Below, one piece after another: positions 9,928-62,881 of a DNA stretch of 64,000 nucleotides; positions within the stretch are counted from its first letter, which is position 1; each line of letters opens with the position of its first letter. Where the stretch lies: the NCBI RefSeq assembly GCF_000299335.2, contig NZ_CP004387.1, forward strand, positions 3,922,994-3,986,993, in the 5' to 3' direction. Under the pieces are notes generated by a model. That model made no database searches and had not been told where the DNA came from. It saw nothing but the letters and a program-made list of their open reading frames with translations. A program made the position numbers and the translations under genes. The stretch is from Isoalcanivorax pacificus W11-5. GTDB lineage: Bacteria > Pseudomonadota > Gammaproteobacteria > Pseudomonadales > Alcanivoracaceae.

Positions 9928-10542
9928 ATGCACCCTGTAGAACGCCTGCTGCGGCAGACCCAGTTCCTGACCAGCGCCCAGCGGCTGGACCAGTGCCCCC
10001 CCGACGAAGGCCTGGAAGTGGCCTTTGCCGGCCGCTCCAATGCGGGCAAATCCAGCGCCATCAATCGCCTTACCGGCCAGAAGAGCCTGGCGCGGACCTC
10101 GAAGACCCCCGGCCGCACGCAGCTGCTGAACTTCTTTGAAGTGACCGAAGGCCGCCGGCTGGTGGACCTGCCCGGCTATGGCTACGCCAAAGTAGACCGT
10201 GCCACGCGCCAGCAGTGGCAGAAGGAGCTGGATGGCTACCTGGCCGAGCGCCGCTGCCTGCGCGGGCTGGTGCTGTTGATGGACATCCGCCATCCGCTGA
10301 AGGATTTCGACCGGATGCTGGTGGACTGGTCCGCCGAGGCCGGTATGCCGCTGCACCTGCTGCTGACCAAGGCCGACAAGCTCAGCTTCGGCCAGGCCAA
10401 GACCACCGTGATGAAGGTCGCCAGCTCGCTCAAGGGCCACCCGGCGCCGCTCACCGCGCAACTGTTCTCCTCCACCAGTGGCGCCGGCTGCGATGATGCC
10501 TGGGATCGTCTGGGCGGCTGGCTCGAACTGCCGCTGGACTGA
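9928..10542 (+). CDS. engB: Ribosome biogenesis GTP-binding protein EngB/YihA
   Basis: With the start at the ATG of MHPVERLLRQTQFLTS the protein is 204 residues, normal for EngB, an essential GTPase for 50S assembly. The reading frame runs further upstream, but that extension lacks similarity features. Seen: G1 GRSNAGKSS (residues about 34-42), the TPGRTQLLNFF switch region, G3 DLPGYGYAKV, and G4 TKADKLS. It reads towards the polA-side sRNA candidate. This reproduces the engB-sRNA-polA order of gammaproteobacteria (Spot 42 in Escherichia, ErsA in Pseudomonas). Confidence 0.96.
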   Translation: MHPVERLLRQTQFLTSAQRLDQCPPDEGLEVAFAGRSNAGKSSAINRLTGQKSLARTSKTPGRTQLLNFFEVTEGRRLVDLPGYGYAKVDRATRQQWQKELDGYLAERRCLRGLVLLMDIRHPLKDFDRMLVDWSAEAGMPLHLLLTKADKLSFGQAKTTVMKVASSLKGHPAPLTAQLFSSTSGAGCDDAWDRLGGWLELPLD

Positions 10543-10768: not shown

Positions 10769-10821
10769 AAAAAAAATCCCTGGCAGCAAATCGGGGGAAG
10801 GGAACGACTGCGCTGCCAGGG
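10769..10821 (-). terminator. Rho-independent terminator of the sRNA candidate
   Basis: A perfect 10-bp stem (CCCTGGCAGC/GCTGCCAGGG) is followed on the minus strand by ATTTTTTTT. Orientation is away from polA and towards engB. It could also terminate read-through from the DUF815/polA unit. Confidence 0.88.
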
Positions 10822-10930
10822 AGGCTTGCCGCCTCCGGTTCTCTGGGGGAAGAAACCGGAGACTAAAAAGCTGCGGACCGGCGAGGGTTACTGGGGGATC
10901 GGGGGGTACCGTTCCGCAGCTATTTCCTGT
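10769..10930 (-). ncRNA. Candidate small RNA in the Spot42/ErsA position, three C-rich hairpin loops
   Basis: Between engB and the polA unit the minus strand holds a promoter-like element followed by three stem-loops and a clean terminator. Hairpin 1 has arms 10913-10920 and 10870-10877 (GCTGCGGA/TCCGCAGC) followed by TTTTT. Hairpin 2 has arms 10854-10861 and 10833-10840 (AACCGGAG/CTCCGGTT read on the plus strand). Hairpin 3 has arms 10812-10821 and 10778-10787 (10 bp) followed by eight Us. All three loops expose a run of five or six Cs (CCCCCC and CCCCC, CUUCCCCC, CCUUCCCCC). No credible ORF covers it. Position and direction equal those of Spot 42 and ErsA. I could not compare the primary sequence, and homology is inferred from synteny only. 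Hairpin 1 could also end a shorter form of about 65 nt. Confidence 0.75.
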
Positions 10931-10935
10931 GACTC

Positions 10936-10966
10936 ATTGTATCGGGCCGGAGTTCCCGGTTTTCAA
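10936..10966 (-). promoter_or_regulatory. Promoter of the sRNA candidate
   Basis: On the minus strand TACAAT (10936-10941) is a near-perfect -10 box with TTGAAA (10961-10966) 19 bases upstream, somewhat longer than the optimal spacing. Overlapping it, GAACTC followed after 17 bases by TCACA resembles an extracytoplasmic sigma (AlgU/RpoE) promoter (GAACTT-N16/17-TCTGA). ErsA is known to be AlgU-dependent in Pseudomonas. Which sigma factor is used cannot be decided by reading. Confidence 0.5.
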
Positions 10967-11179
10967 CTTTTCTGCTCCGGAACTCTACTCTTTTACAGAT
11001 TTTACCGTTTGGCACAACACTGGCGTGTTTTTTCTTGCGGTGCGTCACACGGAACGCGTGCGTCACCGGACAAACGGTCCTCAGAAACGGTTCGGCGCCT
11101 TCACCAGACACCCCTCCTGCACACTGCTGCCCGGCGCGCCAACGACGCGTGAAGGCAGGCGCCCTCCGTCGCCCTCTGA

Positions 11180-11944
11180 TCAGATATCACCACTGTGCTG
11201 ATTCCAGAACTGCCGTGCCGTTCGCCCGGAGCGCCCGCCCTTTTCCATCGAAAACCGCCGCGCCAGGGTATGTAACTGCTCACGATCATTCACCGCCGGA
11301 AACAGGTGGTCGATCATCTCGAAATACTGCTGCTCGGAAATCGGGTAGAACGACAGCCCCAGGCCAAAACGGTCTGCCAGGGAGATCTTTTCCTCAACGG
11401 CGTCACCCAGGTGCAATTCGCCATCCACCACGCGGCTGGCGGCGTTGTCACGGTGGTATTCCGGCAGCAGGTGCCGGCGGTTGGACGTCGCATAGATGCG
11501 CACGTTTTCCGGCGGCAATTCGATTGAGCCTTCCAGCACGGTTTTCAGGTGTTTGTAGCCACGCTCACCCTCGTCAAAGGACAGGTCATCGCAGTAAATG
11601 ACGAAACGCTGTGCGCGTTCGCGAATATCGTCGACGATTTCCGGCAGCGACGCCAGTTCGTCCTTGTCCACTTCAATCAGCCTCAGCCCTTGCGGCGCAA
11701 ATTCATTCAGCACCGCTTTCACCAGTGATGACTTGCCGGTGCCGCGGCTGCCCCAGAGCAACACATGGTTGCAGGGTTCGCCCGCCAGGAAGCGCTCGGT
11801 GTTGCGTACCAGTTTGCCTTTCTGGGTGTCGACACCGAGCAGGTCATCGAGACGAATCGGATCAAGGTGCCGCACAGCTCGCAGTTGCCGGTTATGGGCG
11901 CGCCAGACCGCAGCAGTGGTCAGTTTCCAGTCGATACTGCTCAT
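11180..11944 (-). CDS. DUF815-family AAA+ ATPase
   Basis: The 254-residue protein has Walker A GSRGTGKSS (about residues 65-73), a Walker B-like FVIYCDDLSFD, a sensor-type YATSNRRHLLP and an arginine-rich middle. This layout fits the DUF815 (YjeP/PA-type) AAA+ ATPases, a widespread family without a firmly established role. It starts 3 bases after the polA stop on the same strand, so it is very likely co-transcribed with polA. In many genomes Spot42/ErsA follows polA directly, and here this ATPase is inserted between polA and the sRNA. No signal peptide or membrane segment is seen. Confidence 0.85.
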   Translation of the reverse strand: MSSIDWKLTTAAVWRAHNRQLRAVRHLDPIRLDDLLGVDTQKGKLVRNTERFLAGEPCNHVLLWGSRGTGKSSLVKAVLNEFAPQGLRLIEVDKDELASLPEIVDDIRERAQRFVIYCDDLSFDEGERGYKHLKTVLEGSIELPPENVRIYATSNRRHLLPEYHRDNAASRVVDGELHLGDAVEEKISLADRFGLGLSFYPISEQQYFEMIDHLFPAVNDREQLHTLARRFSMEKGGRSGRTARQFWNQHSGDI

Positions 11945-11947
11945 GAA

Positions 11948-14674
11948 TCAGTGCGCCTCGTCCCAGTTGTCGCCTATGCCGGCATCCACCACCAGCGGCA
12001 CCTTCAGGTCTGCAGCGCCACTCATCAATGCGGTCGCTTCATTGATCAGGGTATCCACCTGTTTCTCGTCGACCTCGAATACCAGTTCATCGTGCACCTG
12101 CATGATCATCAGCGCGTCGATACCGCTGTCTGTCAGCCACTGGTCCACGCGGAGCATGGCGCGCTTGATGATGTCTGCCGCCGTGCCCTGCATCGGCGCG
12201 TTGATGGCAGTGCGCTCCGCAGCCTGGCGCATGGCCGCGTTGCGGCTGCCGATTTCCGGGAGGTACAGGCGGCGGCCGAACAGCGTTTCCACATAACCCT
12301 GTTCGGCGGCCTTGGCGCGTGTGCTGTCCATGTATTCGCGCACACCGGGATAGCGCTCGAAATAACGGTTGATGTAATCCTGCGCCTCGCCGCGTGGCAC
12401 ACCCAGCTGTTTCGCCAGGCCGAATGCACTCATGCCGTAGATCAGGCCAAAGTTGATCGCTTTGGCGTTGCGGCGCTCGTTGTCGGTCACCGCATCAAGG
12501 GATTTTTCCCACACTTCTGCCGCCGTTGCGCGGTGAATATCCAGGCCGTGTGCAAACGCATCCAGCAGCCCTTTGTCGCCACTGAGGTGCGCCATGATAC
12601 GCAACTCGATCTGCGAATAGTCAGCCGCGACGATCTTGCGCCCGGCGGGCGCCCGGAACGCCTGGCGAATGCGACGCCCTTCTTCGCTGCGCACGGGAAT
12701 GTTCTGCAGGTTCGGGTCGCTGGACGACAGCCGCCCGGTCGCGGCCACGGCCTGATGGTAAGAGGTATGCACGCGGCCACTGCGCGGCTGCACCATCTCC
12801 GGCAGCTTGTCGGTGTAGGTACTTTTCAGCTTGTTCATCGCGCGGTGCGCCATGATGACACTGGGCAGTTCATATTCCAGCGCCAGCTCGGCCAGCACCG
12901 GCTCGGCAGTGGACGGCGCGCCTTTCGGTGTTTTCTTGATCACCGGGATATTCTGTTCGGTATAGAGAATCTCACCAAGCTGCTTGGTGGAATTGAGGTT
13001 GAACGGGCGCCCGGCGATCTCGTGCGCCTGCTTTTCCAGCGCGGCCATTTTTTTCGCCAGTTCCTGGCTTTGCAGGCGCAACATGCCGGCATCCACGTAG
13101 CAGCCGTTGCGTTCAATGCGTGACAGCACGCTGACCAGCGGCACTTCGATCTCACGGAACACGCGGGCCAATGTCGGGATCGCCTCCAGACGTGGCCAGA
13201 GTGTTTCGTGCAGGCGCAGGGTAATGTCCGCGTCTTCCGCCGCATAGGGCGCGGCGTCATCAATCGCGATCTGATTGAAGGTGAGCTGCTTGGCGCCTTT
13301 GCCCGCAATGTCCTCGAAGGCGATATTGCGATGGCCCAGAAACTTCAGCGCCAGCGAATCCATGTCGTGGCGGGTGGCGACGGAATCCAGCACGTAGGAT
13401 TCCAGCATGGTGTCGTACTCCACCCCGCGCAGCGTAATGTCGTACTGGGCCAGCACGCTCATGTCGTACTTGAGGTTCTGGCCGATCTTTTTCAGGCCCG
13501 GATCTTCCAGCAACGGCTTGAGTTTCTTCAGCACCGCGTCGCGGTCGAGCTGGTCGGGCGCACCGGGGTAATCGTGCGCCACCGGGACATAGGCGGCCTC
13601 ACCCGGCGAAATGGCAAAGGAAACACCGACCAGTTCCGCCTGCATGTAATCCAGGCTGGTGGTTTCGGTATCAAAGGCAAACAGCTTTGCCGCAACCAAT
13701 CGTTGCAGCCAGTCATCCAGCGTTGCGTCGTCGGTGATGGTGACGTAACTGGCGCGATCAATGCTGGTCTCGGCGGTGACGTCCTCGGGCACCTCCTCGC
13801 CGTCGAGTATTTCCAGCAACCAGCTTTTGAATTCCAGCGTGCGGTACTGCTCTGCCAGGGCCACCTTGTCCGGCTCGCGCAGGGTCAGTTCGTCGAAGGT
13901 CTCGTTCAGCACGCAATCCAGCTTGATGGTGGCCAGCTGGTAGGACAGGAACGCCTGGTCACGATGCTCTTCGAGCTTTTTCGGCAGGGTCTTGGCACCG
14001 CGAATCGGCAACGCCGGCACCTTGTCCAGATTGTCGTAGAGCGTCGTCAGGCTGCCGATGCCCTGCAGCAATCCCAACGCCGTCTTTTCACCGACACCCG
14101 GCACGCCGGGGATGTTGTCGACCTTGTCGCCCATCAGCGCCAGCAGATCGATGATCAGCTCCGGGCCAACACCGAATTTTTCCACCACACCGTCAGGGTC
14201 GAGCACCGTGCCGGTCATGGTATTGACCAGCGTGATGTGACCGTCCACCAGTTGTGCCATGTCCTTGTCGCCGGTGGAGATCACCACCGGCTGGCCGGCG
14301 GCGGCGGCCTGCCGGGCGAGCGTGCCGATCACGTCGTCGGCTTCCACACCCTCTTCCACGATCAGCGGCAGCCCCATGGCACGGATCAGCGTGTACAGCG
14401 GTTCCACCTGTGCGCGCAGTTCATCCGGCATCGGCGGGCGCTGGGCTTTGTACTGTTCAAACAGTTCGTCGCGGAAGGTTTTACCCTTGGCATCGAATAC
14501 CACGGCCATGCGTTCGGGCTGATAGTCCGCCAGCAGTTTGCGCAGCATGCTGGCGACGCCGCGCACCGCGCCGGTCGGCTGGCCGGACGAGGTGGCCAGG
14601 GGCGGCAGGGCATGAAAGGCTCGGTACAGGTAGGACGAGCCGTCTACCAGGACGAGGGGTTTCGGTTGTGACAT
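11948..14674 (-). CDS. polA: DNA polymerase I
   Basis: Starting at [20 protein letters not shown] the protein is 908 residues, typical for PolA. The open frame extends 20 codons upstream without family resemblance. Three domains are visible: a 5'-3' exonuclease with [14 protein letters not shown] and [18 protein letters not shown], a 3'-5' exonuclease with the intact [11 protein letters not shown] Exo I acidic pair, and a polymerase domain with [16 protein letters not shown] (motif A), the [16 protein letters not shown]-helix and VHDELVFEV (motif C). It performs repair synthesis and Okazaki-fragment primer removal. Both nuclease activities look intact. Confidence 0.98.
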
Positions 14675-14746
14675 GGCGTGCGGGCCTGTTCGCGGCTGGA
14701 GAGAGCATCTTGCCGCAGGCCCGCCAGATTTCAACCGTTTGCTGCG

Positions 14747-25984: not shown

Positions 25985-26133
25985 CCCGGCTGCCCGGCAC
26001 GCCGCGCCGGCAAACCCCCTGCCCGGATTTTGCGTGATGTGGGCGCAGGCGTGCTCTGGGCTTGCGGCTGGACCGATGCTGCTGTGCGTGTCCCAAACCT
26101 GCTCCGATGGTGATGGTGACTCTTTCGCCAATC

Positions 26134-26168
26134 TGTGCAAATATGGACATCAACTCCAAATTTGCACA
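26134..26168. promoter_or_regulatory. 35-base inverted repeat before the DUF4143 ATPase
   Basis: TGTGCAAAT and ATTTGCACA, perfect 9-base arms, are separated by 17 bases and end 4 bases before the likely start codon at 26173. It could be a repressor site, or a hairpin in the leader that hides the start. The arm shares the GTGCAAA core with the TetR operators 0.8 kb upstream. Confidence 0.6.
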
Positions 26169-26172
26169 AGCC

Positions 26173-27348
26173 ATGATCCCTCGAATCCTTACCAAAGAGC
26201 TACGCACACAACTCACCGAATACCCGGTGGTCACCGTGCTGGGCCCACGGCAGGCAGGCAAAACGACGCTGGTGCGCTCCATCCTCGCGGACTATGACTA
26301 TGTTTCCCTGGAAACCCCGGAAACGCGCGAGTTCGCCAACGAAGACCCCAAGGCCTTTCTCAAGCGTTACCCAAAGCGGGTGATTTTCGATGAAATCCAG
26401 CGCACGCCCCACTTGCTAAGCTATATCCAGACACTGGTGGACGAACGGCCCGGCGAGAACGGTCAGTTTGTTCTCACTGGCTCCCACCAAATGGAATTGC
26501 GTGCCGCCATCAGCCAATCACTGGCTGGCCGTACCGGCATACTGCATTTGCTGCCTCTGTCCATCCCTGAACTGAAGGCAGCAGGCATGGGCTTCGAGCA
26601 TTTCACCGAGTACGCCTTCCACGGCTTTCTGCCACGTATTCACGACCAGCAACAACGGCCCCACCGGGCATGGGCCAATTATTACCAGACCTATGTCGAG
26701 CGCGATGTGCGCCAGCTTATCAACCTGAAAGACGCCACCCTGTTCGAGAAGTTCATCAAACTGATGGCCGGGCGCGCCGGGCAAATTATCAATTACCAAT
26801 CACTGGCCAACGATATCGGCGTGGACAACAAGACCGTCAAACACTGGCTTTCCATTCTCGAAGCATCATTTGTAGTCTTCAAATTGCCGCCGTATTTCGA
26901 TAATTTCGGCAAACGGGTCATCAAATCACCCAAGTACTATTTCATTGACGTCGGCTTATTGACCTATTTGCTCGATATAGAAACCCCTCAACAGATCACC
27001 CGTGACCCACTGCTTGGCAGCATTTTCGAAAACCTCGTCGTACTGGAAGCCCTGAAGGCCCGCTATAATCAGGGGCATGCAGCCAACCTGTACTTCTTCC
27101 GTGACAGCCACGGCAATGAGATTGATCTTCTGCATAAATCTGGCAGTGAACTGAGTGGCATGGAAATCAAGGCCGCAGAAACCTGGAACAGTCATTTCAA
27201 GCAGGGCCTGAAACGCTTTTCCCGAAACAACCATGCCCTTGCCCGTGCAGCGGTCGCTTATAATGGCGAGGATTTTCAGATGAGCGATGGCATAGAGGCC
27301 GTACACTTTTCCCGTGCCGGGACATGGCTAACGCAAGACGGGAGCTGA
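26173..27348 (+). CDS. AAA-type ATPase with C-terminal DUF4143
   Basis: From MIPRILTKELRTQLTEYPVV the protein is 391 residues. It has Walker A GPRQAGKTT near residue 24, Walker B VIFDEIQRTPHLL and LTGSHQ sensor. The C-terminal DUF4143 restriction-nuclease-like half has GSIFENLVVLEALK, the catalytic-type FFRDSHGNEIDLL and a later MEIKAAE. The family is common in bacteria and mobile regions, with no fixed role. An alternative ATG at 26143 lies inside the inverted repeat. By eye the gene is clearly less GC-rich than its neighbours, with A/T in many third positions, suggesting horizontal acquisition. Confidence 0.88.
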   Translation: MIPRILTKELRTQLTEYPVVTVLGPRQAGKTTLVRSILADYDYVSLETPETREFANEDPKAFLKRYPKRVIFDEIQRTPHLLSYIQTLVDERPGENGQFVLTGSHQMELRAAISQSLAGRTGILHLLPLSIPELKAAGMGFEHFTEYAFHGFLPRIHDQQQRPHRAWANYYQTYVERDVRQLINLKDATLFEKFIKLMAGRAGQIINYQSLANDIGVDNKTVKHWLSILEASFVVFKLPPYFDNFGKRVIKSPKYYFIDVGLLTYLLDIETPQQITRDPLLGSIFENLVVLEALKARYNQGHAANLYFFRDSHGNEIDLLHKSGSELSGMEIKAAETWNSHFKQGLKRFSRNNHALARAAVAYNGEDFQMSDGIEAVHFSRAGTWLTQDGS

Positions 27349-61069: not shown

Positions 61070-62881
61070 TCAGTCAGCCAGAAACAGCGCACAGGACGCG
61101 TTCGCTGCATCGCGATTATCGTCCATCACTGCCCAGGCCGAAGGCACTGTCGGCAGCACATCGAAGCTCCAGTCCTCCAGCTCGTCAGTCATGTCGAACC
61201 GCAGCGTGTTCATGTCCGACGGGTCCACGGTGACCTGGGTCCAGTCGAGTTGCAGCACGCGTGAGTCGGTATAACCCGGCAGCAACTGCATGTTCAGCAG
61301 AATGGAGTTGTCGTTGATGCGGCGCCAGTCACCAGAAACATACAGCGGCTGTTTGAAACGCTGCTCGCTGTCCGGCACGCCCGCTTCTTCGTAGCGCACA
61401 CAGGCCTGCAGCCGGCCGGCAGTGATGGCCGATGCCTCACCGGCGGACAACAGCAATTGCAGGCGGCCTTCGCCCTTGGCCGGATCGGAGTAATGGATAT
61501 CCAGCACCTTGCCCTGCAGGAAATCCATCGTGGCATCAAAGAAGGCAGCGTCCAGCAACAGGGCGTCAAAGTCCCCGGCATCCCAGTTGGTCCAGTCGCG
61601 GCTTTCATCCAGCAGGAACTGACGCAGTGTGTCCACGTTCAGGTGCTGGCCGTTCTCGGTGGCGTCTGCGATCAACGCCTCCATGCCATCCAGCAGGCTG
61701 TTGAATTCCGTTTCGCTGAAGCTGTCGTTCAGGCTGCTGTTGGTCAGCAGTGTTTCGATAAAATCGAGCAACGCGGACGAGACCTGGTTTTCAAGTTGCG
61801 GATCGGCCTCTGGTTCCAGGAACGAGTAAGCCTCATAACTGGCAAGCACCAATTGAGAGCGGATGTCTGGCGAGCTGTAATCCAGCCCACCGTTGATCAG
61901 GCCCGCATTCACGGCCGCCTGGACATACTGCTGCGCCCAGTCGGACACTTGGCCGGGCACCGCCTGGTCAACCGGCTGCAAGCCCAGGGCACGCGTCATG
62001 ATGGCGGCGAGTTGTTCCATCGTTACGTCGCCGGGTGGCGTGAAGGTGCCCCCGTTGATGTCTTCAAAGCTGGCCCCCAGGCCGGCAATGTACCCGAACT
62101 GCCACTCGCTTGATGAAATATCGGCAAACGGACTCTGTGAAGGGGGTTCCTGATCCAGGCCCAGCAGACGCTGCATGACGCTGGCCAGTTGCGCACGTGT
62201 CATGCCCTCATCAAGTGCAGCACTGCCGTCGTCCATCCCCTCAAAAATGCCCGCCTCGACCAGCGCATCGAACTTCTCCTGCGCCGACAGGTTGTCCGAG
62301 GCGTAGGGCACCGCGCTGCGGGCGGCGAAACCGACCGGCGTGGTGATGTATTTTTGATAAAAGGCATCAATGATGCTGTACAGGATATCGAGCCCGTCCT
62401 GGCTGTCGGCCGCCGCCGACACCGCTGCCTTCGCCGCGTTCAGGTCCAGATCCTGGCCACGCAGCTGGTCTACCTGCACATGGTAACGGTAGACCTTTTC
62501 ATTCTGCTGGCCCGTCACCAGGTTGACGCCGCCAAAGTAGAAAAGCGTGACGTCATCCGGCAGGTTGGACAGCGACGGCAAGCGCAGACAATGCTGACGC
62601 AGGGTCAGGTCCTGGCTTTTGCAGTAGTTGGTATGCGTGACCGGGTTATAGCCGAAAAAGCCCTGGCTGTCGGTGTAACCGATCGGCTCGTCCTCGTCGT
62701 GGCTGGACGAGTCATTCAGGTCCACGAAAATTGTGGCGTTCGCCAGCCCGCCCGCCAGCGTGACGCGGCCTTCCGTGCCAGTCACCGGCGCATTGCCGCC
62801 GTCCTGGCTACTGTCACCACCGCAGGCCACCAGCATGGCACTGACCATCGGCACCAGTGCCCATTTCTTGTATGCAGTCAT
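61070..62881 (-). CDS. Lipoprotein with S-layer-homology-like repeats
   Basis: The 603-residue protein has a signal peptide and lipobox LVAC (Cys20, in SAMLVACGGD), so it is a lipoprotein. A short EF-hand-like acidic stretch, VDLNDSSSHDEDEP, lies near residue 53. Residues about 205-360 contain three SLH-like segments with GMTRAQLASVMQRLLGL, FADISSSEWQFGYIAGL, DVTMEQLAAIMTRALGL and WAQQYVQAAVNAGLI. SLH domains usually bind cell-wall polymers and are unexpected in a Gram-negative lipoprotein, though similar proteins are known in this bacterial group. The C-terminal half is unassigned. It lies 111 bases downstream of a TraF-like outer-membrane gene on the same strand. Confidence 0.85.
   Translation of the reverse strand: MTAYKKWALVPMVSAMLVACGGDSSQDGGNAPVTGTEGRVTLAGGLANATIFVDLNDSSSHDEDEPIGYTDSQGFFGYNPVTHTNYCKSQDLTLRQHCLRLPSLSNLPDDVTLFYFGGVNLVTGQQNEKVYRYHVQVDQLRGQDLDLNAAKAAVSAAADSQDGLDILYSIIDAFYQKYITTPVGFAARSAVPYASDNLSAQEKFDALVEAGIFEGMDDGSAALDEGMTRAQLASVMQRLLGLDQEPPSQSPFADISSSEWQFGYIAGLGASFEDINGGTFTPPGDVTMEQLAAIMTRALGLQPVDQAVPGQVSDWAQQYVQAAVNAGLINGGLDYSSPDIRSQLVLASYEAYSFLEPEADPQLENQVSSALLDFIETLLTNSSLNDSFSETEFNSLLDGMEALIADATENGQHLNVDTLRQFLLDESRDWTNWDAGDFDALLLDAAFFDATMDFLQGKVLDIHYSDPAKGEGRLQLLLSAGEASAITAGRLQACVRYEEAGVPDSEQRFKQPLYVSGDWRRINDNSILLNMQLLPGYTDSRVLQLDWTQVTVDPSDMNTLRFDMTDELEDWSFDVLPTVPSAWAVMDDNRDAANASCALFLAD

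Follow-up and report, generated by a model that had tools for sequence, protein, structure and literature searches.

The DNA analysed here, a 64,000-nt stretch of the Isoalcanivorax pacificus W11-5 genome that we call the window, contains a gap between engB and a DUF815 ATPase gene that is followed by polA. This arrangement had been put forward in an earlier note based on the sequence alone, and it is borne out by the Pfam matches of the neighbouring genes. The minus strand of the gap carries a gene for a small RNA (sRNA). The features of the locus are as follows.

9928-10542, forward strand: engB, the convergent neighbour (Pfam MMR_HSR1)
10769-10921, minus strand: sRNA of about 153 nt (40-copy alignment and covariation; 5′ end placed by homology)
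10769-10776, minus strand: U8 tail of the intrinsic terminator (read from the sequence)
10777-10822, minus strand: hairpin 3, the terminator stem, with loop UUCCCUUCCCCC (5 of 12 pairs have both partners altered among copies)
10797-10793, minus strand: CCCCC in the loop of hairpin 3 (fold)
10823-10830, minus strand: linker GGCAAGCC, a possible 2-bp mini-hairpin (nearly invariant in the copy alignment)
10831-10863, minus strand: hairpin 2, with CCCCC in its loop at 10849-10845 (fold; outside the covariation count)
10869-10921, minus strand: hairpin 1, with a 25-nt loop (10 of 13 pairs have both partners altered among copies)
10906-10901 and 10897-10893, minus strand: CCCCCC and CCCCC in the loop of hairpin 1 (fold)
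10927-10933, minus strand: −10 element GTCACAG, spacer 16 (with the −35 element, ranks second in a matrix scan of the window)
10950-10956, minus strand: −35 element GGAACTC, of the ECF sigma-E type (a version is present in 40 of 41 copies)
10991-11005, minus strand: upstream direct repeat GTAAAATCTGTAAAA (all 10 letters in 9 of 28 first copies)
11180-11944, minus strand: DUF815 AAA ATPase gene, between the sRNA and polA (Pfam DUF815, 1.7e-100)
11948-14734, minus strand: polA (Pfam DNA_pol_A)

The 198-nt stretch from 10769 to 10966 folds with a predicted energy of −76.5 kcal/mol (z −4.8), and none of 200 shuffled sequences was equally stable. The three minus-strand stems and U8 terminator described in the earlier note hold. 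The note had also given each stem one C-rich loop. The runs of 6, 5, 5 and 5 C are indeed open, being unpaired at mean probabilities of 0.98, 0.98, 0.99 and 0.81; the count must be corrected to four C runs in three loops, because loop 1 holds two. No ATG or GTG was seen when the 153 nt were read by eye for protein-coding potential. A further suggestion, that a second terminator after hairpin 1 yields isoforms of about 65 and 160 nt, does not describe a feature of the family. Specifically, a T5 run follows hairpin 1 in 9 of 40 copies (seven from the window's genus and two from a sister genus), and thus the second terminator is not conserved in the family. Two isoforms are possible in the window's genus, as opposed to the family as a whole; Alcanivorax dieselolei, for one, lacks the T run.

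A search with our family model found a single sRNA copy in the window's genome. Just past the sRNA terminator, at 10748-10731 on the minus strand, there is a small hairpin (ACCCGUU-CCCC-AACGGGU) with a T-rich stretch behind it. This hairpin is present in genome G004, the nearest relative, too, and could be either a backup terminator or the remnant of a second copy.

In a search of 57 relatives, the sRNA sequence was found in 33 of the 36 genomes of the window's family and was absent from all 21 genomes of other families. A pattern built on the 3′ half returned 26 stretches in named genomes, of which 24 bear the label Alcanivorax or Alloalcanivorax, one Alcanivoracaceae and one Pseudomonadales. 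Two tandem copies of the sRNA are found in the loci of 13 of 28 relatives. We aligned 40 copies (39 distinct, the window's included), leaving aside those of loci L026 and L028, which both end within the RNA, and that of L030, which has an extra hairpin. The copy of L027 is likewise outside the 40 used for the loop and T-run counts, and was handled by hand for other comparisons.

The consensus structure places standard pairs in 97.5% of the cells of this alignment, compared with 27 to 47% when the structure is slid out of register. Moreover, changes affect both partners in 15 of 28 pairs, and neither this value nor the pairing value was reached in any of 500 shuffles. This count is without the pairs of hairpin 2, which MAFFT misaligned; when folded, all 32 distinct hairpin 2 regions, including that of the window, form the hairpin. 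Covariation is uninformative for the linker. All 40 copies examined keep a run of at least 4 C in every one of the three loop regions while stem bases vary, and the loop letters are almost invariant, above all CCCCGAT-CCCC of hairpin 1. The structure of the sRNA is under selection. The loops and stems on whose conservation the earlier proposal depended are thus conserved among relatives, as judged from the family genomes, the covarying stems and the C loops. In genome G011 the sRNA (L030, 1387-1578, 192 nt) has a fourth C-loop hairpin, which is apparently a duplicate of hairpin 2.

A transcript is available from a relative. A 2022 study detected sRNA4758272 of Alcanivorax dieselolei B-5 by dRNA-seq (PMC9788540; public data set CRA008652). 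The accessible part of that article places the RNA between the genes for a GTP-binding protein and Na+/H+ antiporter subunit G, reports strong conservation across the genus and a second copy in some species, and states that its sRNAs are named by genomic location and that the 5′ ends are accurate. The same part makes no statement on function, promoter class, structure or kinship for this RNA. In our genome G019 the sRNA match ends at exactly 4758272, and locus L022 has EngB on one side and an antiporter-G-like frame (identified by eye) on the other. From the exact coordinate and these neighbours we infer that G019 is the B-5 genome. The two RNAs have in common the gene slot, the coordinate of our match in G019, genus-wide conservation and duplicate copies in some species, and sRNA4758272 is therefore the orthologue; the two-copy report fits the tandem copies in our loci. 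When transferred through L022 and the alignment, its 5′ end falls on window position 10921, the sixth base after the −10 element, and this placement gives the length of about 153 nt. The earlier proposal also hinged on a transcript, and the dRNA-seq signal of the B-5 orthologue supplies one in a relative. We conclude that the sRNA is real, conserved and transcribed, the transcript coming from a relative, and that it occupies the Spot 42/ErsA place.

The promoter differs from the TACAAT element named in the earlier note, which we reject: TACAAT occurs in 2 of 41 copies, and a sigma-70 scan found no site. Instead, 40 of 41 copies have GGAACTT, or something close to it, followed by 15-16 bases and TC, which is the ECF RpoE/AlgU consensus. 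This sigma-E-type element is kept although the spacer between its halves varies, and a predicted envelope-stress sigma promoter is present as a sequence element. Among the 38 copies used to train a matrix, the −35 element reads GGAACTT in 31, GAAACTT in six and GGAACAT in one. The TC at −10 is found in all 38, though the spacer had been chosen to find TC and the −10 elements were selected by best fit.

The window's own −35 (GGAACTC) and −10 (GTCACAG) elements deviate from the consensus. When the window's genome and its closest relative are left out of the training set, the matrix ranks this site second among all positions of the window on both strands. The top-ranking sigma-E-like site, at 26755 on the minus strand, lies antisense within a 428-aa frame (26062-27348, forward strand) that has a P-loop-like motif by eye, and this site is probably due to chance. 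Genes for RpoE (314.6 bits) and Hfq (101.3 bits) are found in the genome. At the rpoE locus, the best matrix site precedes the rpoE frame by about 70 nt, which is what one would predict were RpoE to control both itself and the sRNA.

Upstream of the −35 element is the direct repeat GTAAAATCTGTAAAA, which resembles a CpxR box. All 10 letters of GTAAA-N4-GTAAA are present in 9 of 28 first copies and at least eight in 24 of 28, weaker matches being reached by up to 43 of 200 shuffles. The box lies 14 nt from the −35 element in two sister genera and, about two helical turns farther off, at 35-37 nt in the window's genus. CpxR control was considered and set aside, as no regulon emerged: the genome has seven matches to the box versus eight to the reversed pattern. 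Of 12 second copies tested, three have 9 of the 10 box letters. The second copies share another upstream stretch, GTGACG and then ATCG-CA-like letters, tens of bases before the −35 element (loci L008, L011, L013, L017, L018, L020, L021 and L025). This difference in upstream stretches suggests that the tandem genes may answer to different regulators.

An Rfam scan of the window yielded no family at its cut-off. The best match is anti-hemB (RF02837; 23.9 bits, E 0.0029 in 701 bases, cut-off 49.5), followed by sX13 (RF02232; 19.1 bits, E 0.31, cut-off 50) and ErsA (RF01719; 15.4 bits, E 2.6, cut-off 50), and Spot 42 is absent among the matches up to E = 10. Of the two families with which the earlier note had suggested a comparison, Spot 42 thus gives no match and ErsA a weak one below its cut-off; the description of the RNA as a divergent or new regulator is supported in its first sense, no Rfam family matching at its cut-off.

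We also scanned 17 loci with Rfam, 15 from the window's family and two from a family designated f39. The sRNA matches ErsA best in L029, L027 and L021 (37.6, 33.1 and 29.2 bits; E 0.0008, 0.01 and 0.09), where the alignment covers the two 3′ hairpins and, in its entirety, the trailing UUUUUUUUGCCUG. Anti-hemB is best in four loci (L001, L009, L016 and L019; 22.7 to 26.5 bits), alphaproteobacterial ar14 in L065 (28.0 bits, E 0.23) and RgsA in L068, an f39 locus (24.0 bits). In the other loci the sRNA has no Rfam match up to E = 1.

According to the accessible parts of two papers, ersA lies in the polA-engB gap and its RNA has three stem-loops plus a U-rich unstructured domain (PMC8575079), and ErsA is 132 nt long and sigma-22 dependent (PMC5819304). 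The Alcanivorax RNA resembles ErsA in its polA-engB place (engB is adjacent, and the DUF815 gene intervenes before polA), its sigma-22/RpoE-type promoter, two C-loop 3′ hairpins, T8 and a trailing GCCTG. Slot, promoter type and 3′ half might therefore be read as making it simply ErsA, a member of RF01719. We regard this as very improbable, since the window scores 15.4 bits and none of the 15 family loci scores above 37.6. In addition, the U-rich unstructured domain and the conserved ErsA 5′ region are missing, and hairpin 1 stands in the place of the latter. Strict membership of RF01719 is ruled out by the score below 50. Part of the ErsA score could be convergent, as a C-loop hairpin with a U tail is a simple design.

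Other RNAs share parts of the same architecture. The sX13 RNA of Xanthomonadaceae is described, in the part of the source accessible to us, as polA-adjacent, with three C-loop stems (4, 4 and 5 C) and G-rich targets (PMC3771888). The Alcanivorax sRNA likewise has three stems with C-rich loops; it differs in its score of 19.1 bits versus a cut-off of 50, and in its sigma-E-like site, which is lacking at the two sX13 loci above cut-off. Anti-hemB, listed as ncS04 in Burkholderia cenocepacia in the accessible part of PMC5688073, is similar in having a C-loop hairpin and then a terminator hairpin. It is different in that the match is below cut-off and the model is without hairpin 1. Spot 42 (spf) has chromosomal location alone in common with our RNA, as far as the accessible part of PMC3771888 describes it. 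In kind, the Alcanivorax RNA is thus a variant on ErsA and sX13: its place, promoter and 3′ half agree with those of ErsA, and its 5′ half differs.

The position next to engB recurs far beyond the family. In the order, our family model R1 gave matches in 21 of 390 genomes (18 from the family and three from f39); in the class, it picked out two genomes besides the window's own among 369. All five out-of-family matches have an engB gene no more than 2.5 kb away, at 9 and 69 bases for the pair from outside the order and at about 2.2 kb for the three of f39. Such closeness is expected by chance for one or two in a thousand per match. The anti-hemB model matched 107 of 229 class genomes at E ≤ 0.001, 11 of them above cut-off. 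Among the best 80 of these 107, an engB match was found in 71, and in 51 of the 71 the best anti-hemB-model match lies within 1.5 kb of engB (46 downstream and convergent, five downstream and co-oriented; the median of the 51 distances is 39 bases). Exceptions among the same 80 are nine genomes without an engB match, 17 with the match on another contig, which could be true or a contig break, and three with both on one contig but 2.5, 10.6 and 579 kb apart, the last in G513, which has the top anti-hemB score. In genome G576 (C33:13148-13886), four tandem anti-hemB-like matches spaced about 200 bases apart lie roughly 0.4 to 1.2 kb from engB.

The ErsA model matched 17 of 194 genomes of the order, seven above cut-off; of the 10 below, one belongs to the window's family. 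EngB or PolA is encoded inside 17 of 19 ErsA-model loci, and L038 and L046 have neither within the locus; in genome G055 the ErsA gene and engB are on separate contigs. In 14 control genomes, the anti-hemB model matched three below cut-off (E. coli, Caulobacter and Deinobacterium), the sX13 model one and the ErsA model none. Searches of more than 40 genomes with R1 or Rfam models used Infernal's stricter filters. Because the models are loose, the argument for an engB link is carried by position and not by score.

The promoter matrix was then applied to the RNA strand of these loci from 150 nt upstream, with a threshold score of 9. At ErsA-model loci, one of which is a member of the window's family, 17 of 19 reached the threshold (scores of 14 to 24, at a near-constant distance), as did 6 of 12 anti-hemB-model, 3 of 10 sX13-model and 2 of 4 out-of-family R1 loci, the site lying at a similar distance within each set. 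On the other strand the threshold was reached at none of the 19 ErsA-model loci, none of the 41 of the three Rfam models and none of the 45 of all four sets. No sigma-E-like site was found at two f39 loci (0.8 and −1.7) or at the sX13 loci above cut-off, L167 and L168 (3.8 and 2.6). We also surveyed the engB side in 21 genomes of the order, of which G042 had no clear engB, leaving 20 loci from 19 families, one truncated by a contig end. A sigma-E-like site was found on the expected strand in 4 of 19 and on the other in 2 of 19, where shuffling predicts about 0.95, a weak excess.

These data bear on the idea that the RNA is an sX13-like C-loop sRNA made by another sigma factor, with a GGAACTT element that is there by coincidence, in an upstream stretch that the copies happen to share. 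This explanation would agree with the lack of a sigma-E-like site at the two f39 loci and at L167 and L168, and with sX13 itself, which is abundant and Hfq-independent according to the accessible part of PMC3771888. We nevertheless consider it unlikely, because the element persists in 40 of 41 copies despite its changing spacer, sites recur on the RNA strand of the ErsA-, anti-hemB- and sX13-model loci and never on the other, and ErsA is reported to be sigma-22 dependent in the part of PMC5819304 available. Control of the Alcanivorax sRNA by RpoE remains the reading that we prefer.

The C-rich loops had been expected to pair with G-rich Shine-Dalgarno regions, and for this prediction the outcome is mixed. 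The target search covered the window and 20 further stretches, 464 kb or about 11% of the genome, with crude gene calls and uncertain starts. The predicted pairing of loops 1 and 2 at 313 starts is no stronger than inside genes, whereas loop 3 shows a slight excess at −15 kcal/mol or better (42 at starts versus 32 internal). Across the 464 kb, G runs near starts are no commoner than C runs. Exported proteins make up 9 of 23 genes with G runs near the start, compared with 69 of 296, no more than a weak excess (p 0.059). A G5 just upstream of the start is found in 5 of 296 genes, two of the five being exported by our heuristic. For hfq, a target of sX13, the region near the start has only GGG.

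One gene stands out as a candidate target on sequence grounds. A lipoprotein-like gene (603 aa) at 62881 on the minus strand has GGGGG just upstream of its start. Of the 12 genomes of the family that we searched, 6 have the gene; these include the window's own genome and all belong to its genus, and all six copies keep a run of at least 5 G while the rest of the leader varies. The kept G run could reflect ribosome binding alone.

The lack of a general pairing excess at starts is also what might be seen if the sRNA were mainly a decoy, its C-rich loops titrating a protein or another RNA and not mRNA starts. The near-invariant loop letters, CCCCGAT-CCCC above all, exceed what short G-run pairing needs, which would suit such a role. 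We know of no partner for the C-rich loops. The pairing of sX13 C motifs with G-rich motifs, described in the accessible part of PMC3771888, argues against a decoy, and we judge this explanation to be quite improbable.

We favour, with a probability of about 0.68, a stand-alone, trans-acting sRNA that is made by RpoE, has its own terminator, is a divergent relative of ErsA and represses mRNAs with G-rich starts through its C loops. RpoE control, target pairing, repression and any role of Hfq are the parts of this reading that we infer. Under envelope stress, RpoE would transcribe the sRNA, and its own terminator would end the transcript. The four open C runs in three loops would then pair with the G-rich translation-initiation regions of several mRNAs. 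By analogy with Xanthomonas sX13, where the available part of the source reports that repression depends on the C motifs as well as on G-rich motifs in the targets (PMC3771888), this pairing would lower translation of the targets. The gene would have retained the slot, promoter and two 3′ hairpins of the ErsA type, with the ErsA 5′ part replaced by a hairpin that carries two C runs.

The transcript was already known from a relative as sRNA4758272; what is added here is a corrected promoter and a testable link to RpoE. This offers a functional hypothesis, RpoE-driven C-loop pairing, for an sRNA that is widely conserved in a main group of marine oil degraders and had been described without an explanation. 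The authors of sX13 ask, in the part of their paper available to us, whether other bacteria, too, have structurally related sRNAs at their polA locus (PMC3771888). The anti-hemB-like matches beside engB in 51 of the 71 genomes with engB, among the best 80 of 107, give a concrete answer, and a partial literature search found no paper that makes this class-wide link between engB and an sRNA. The Alcanivorax sRNA looks like one branch of a widespread, probably stress-controlled set of regulators at the same chromosomal spot. More tentatively, and at somewhat less than even odds, ErsA, sX13, the anti-hemB-like RNAs and the Alcanivorax RNA may be branches of one ancient gene, mostly convergent with engB throughout the class and often under RpoE, that encodes a multivalent C-loop antisense RNA. 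If so, this gene, sometimes duplicated in tandem, would lower the translation of G-run mRNAs when the envelope is stressed, and what Rfam shows at present would be only fragments of a single family.
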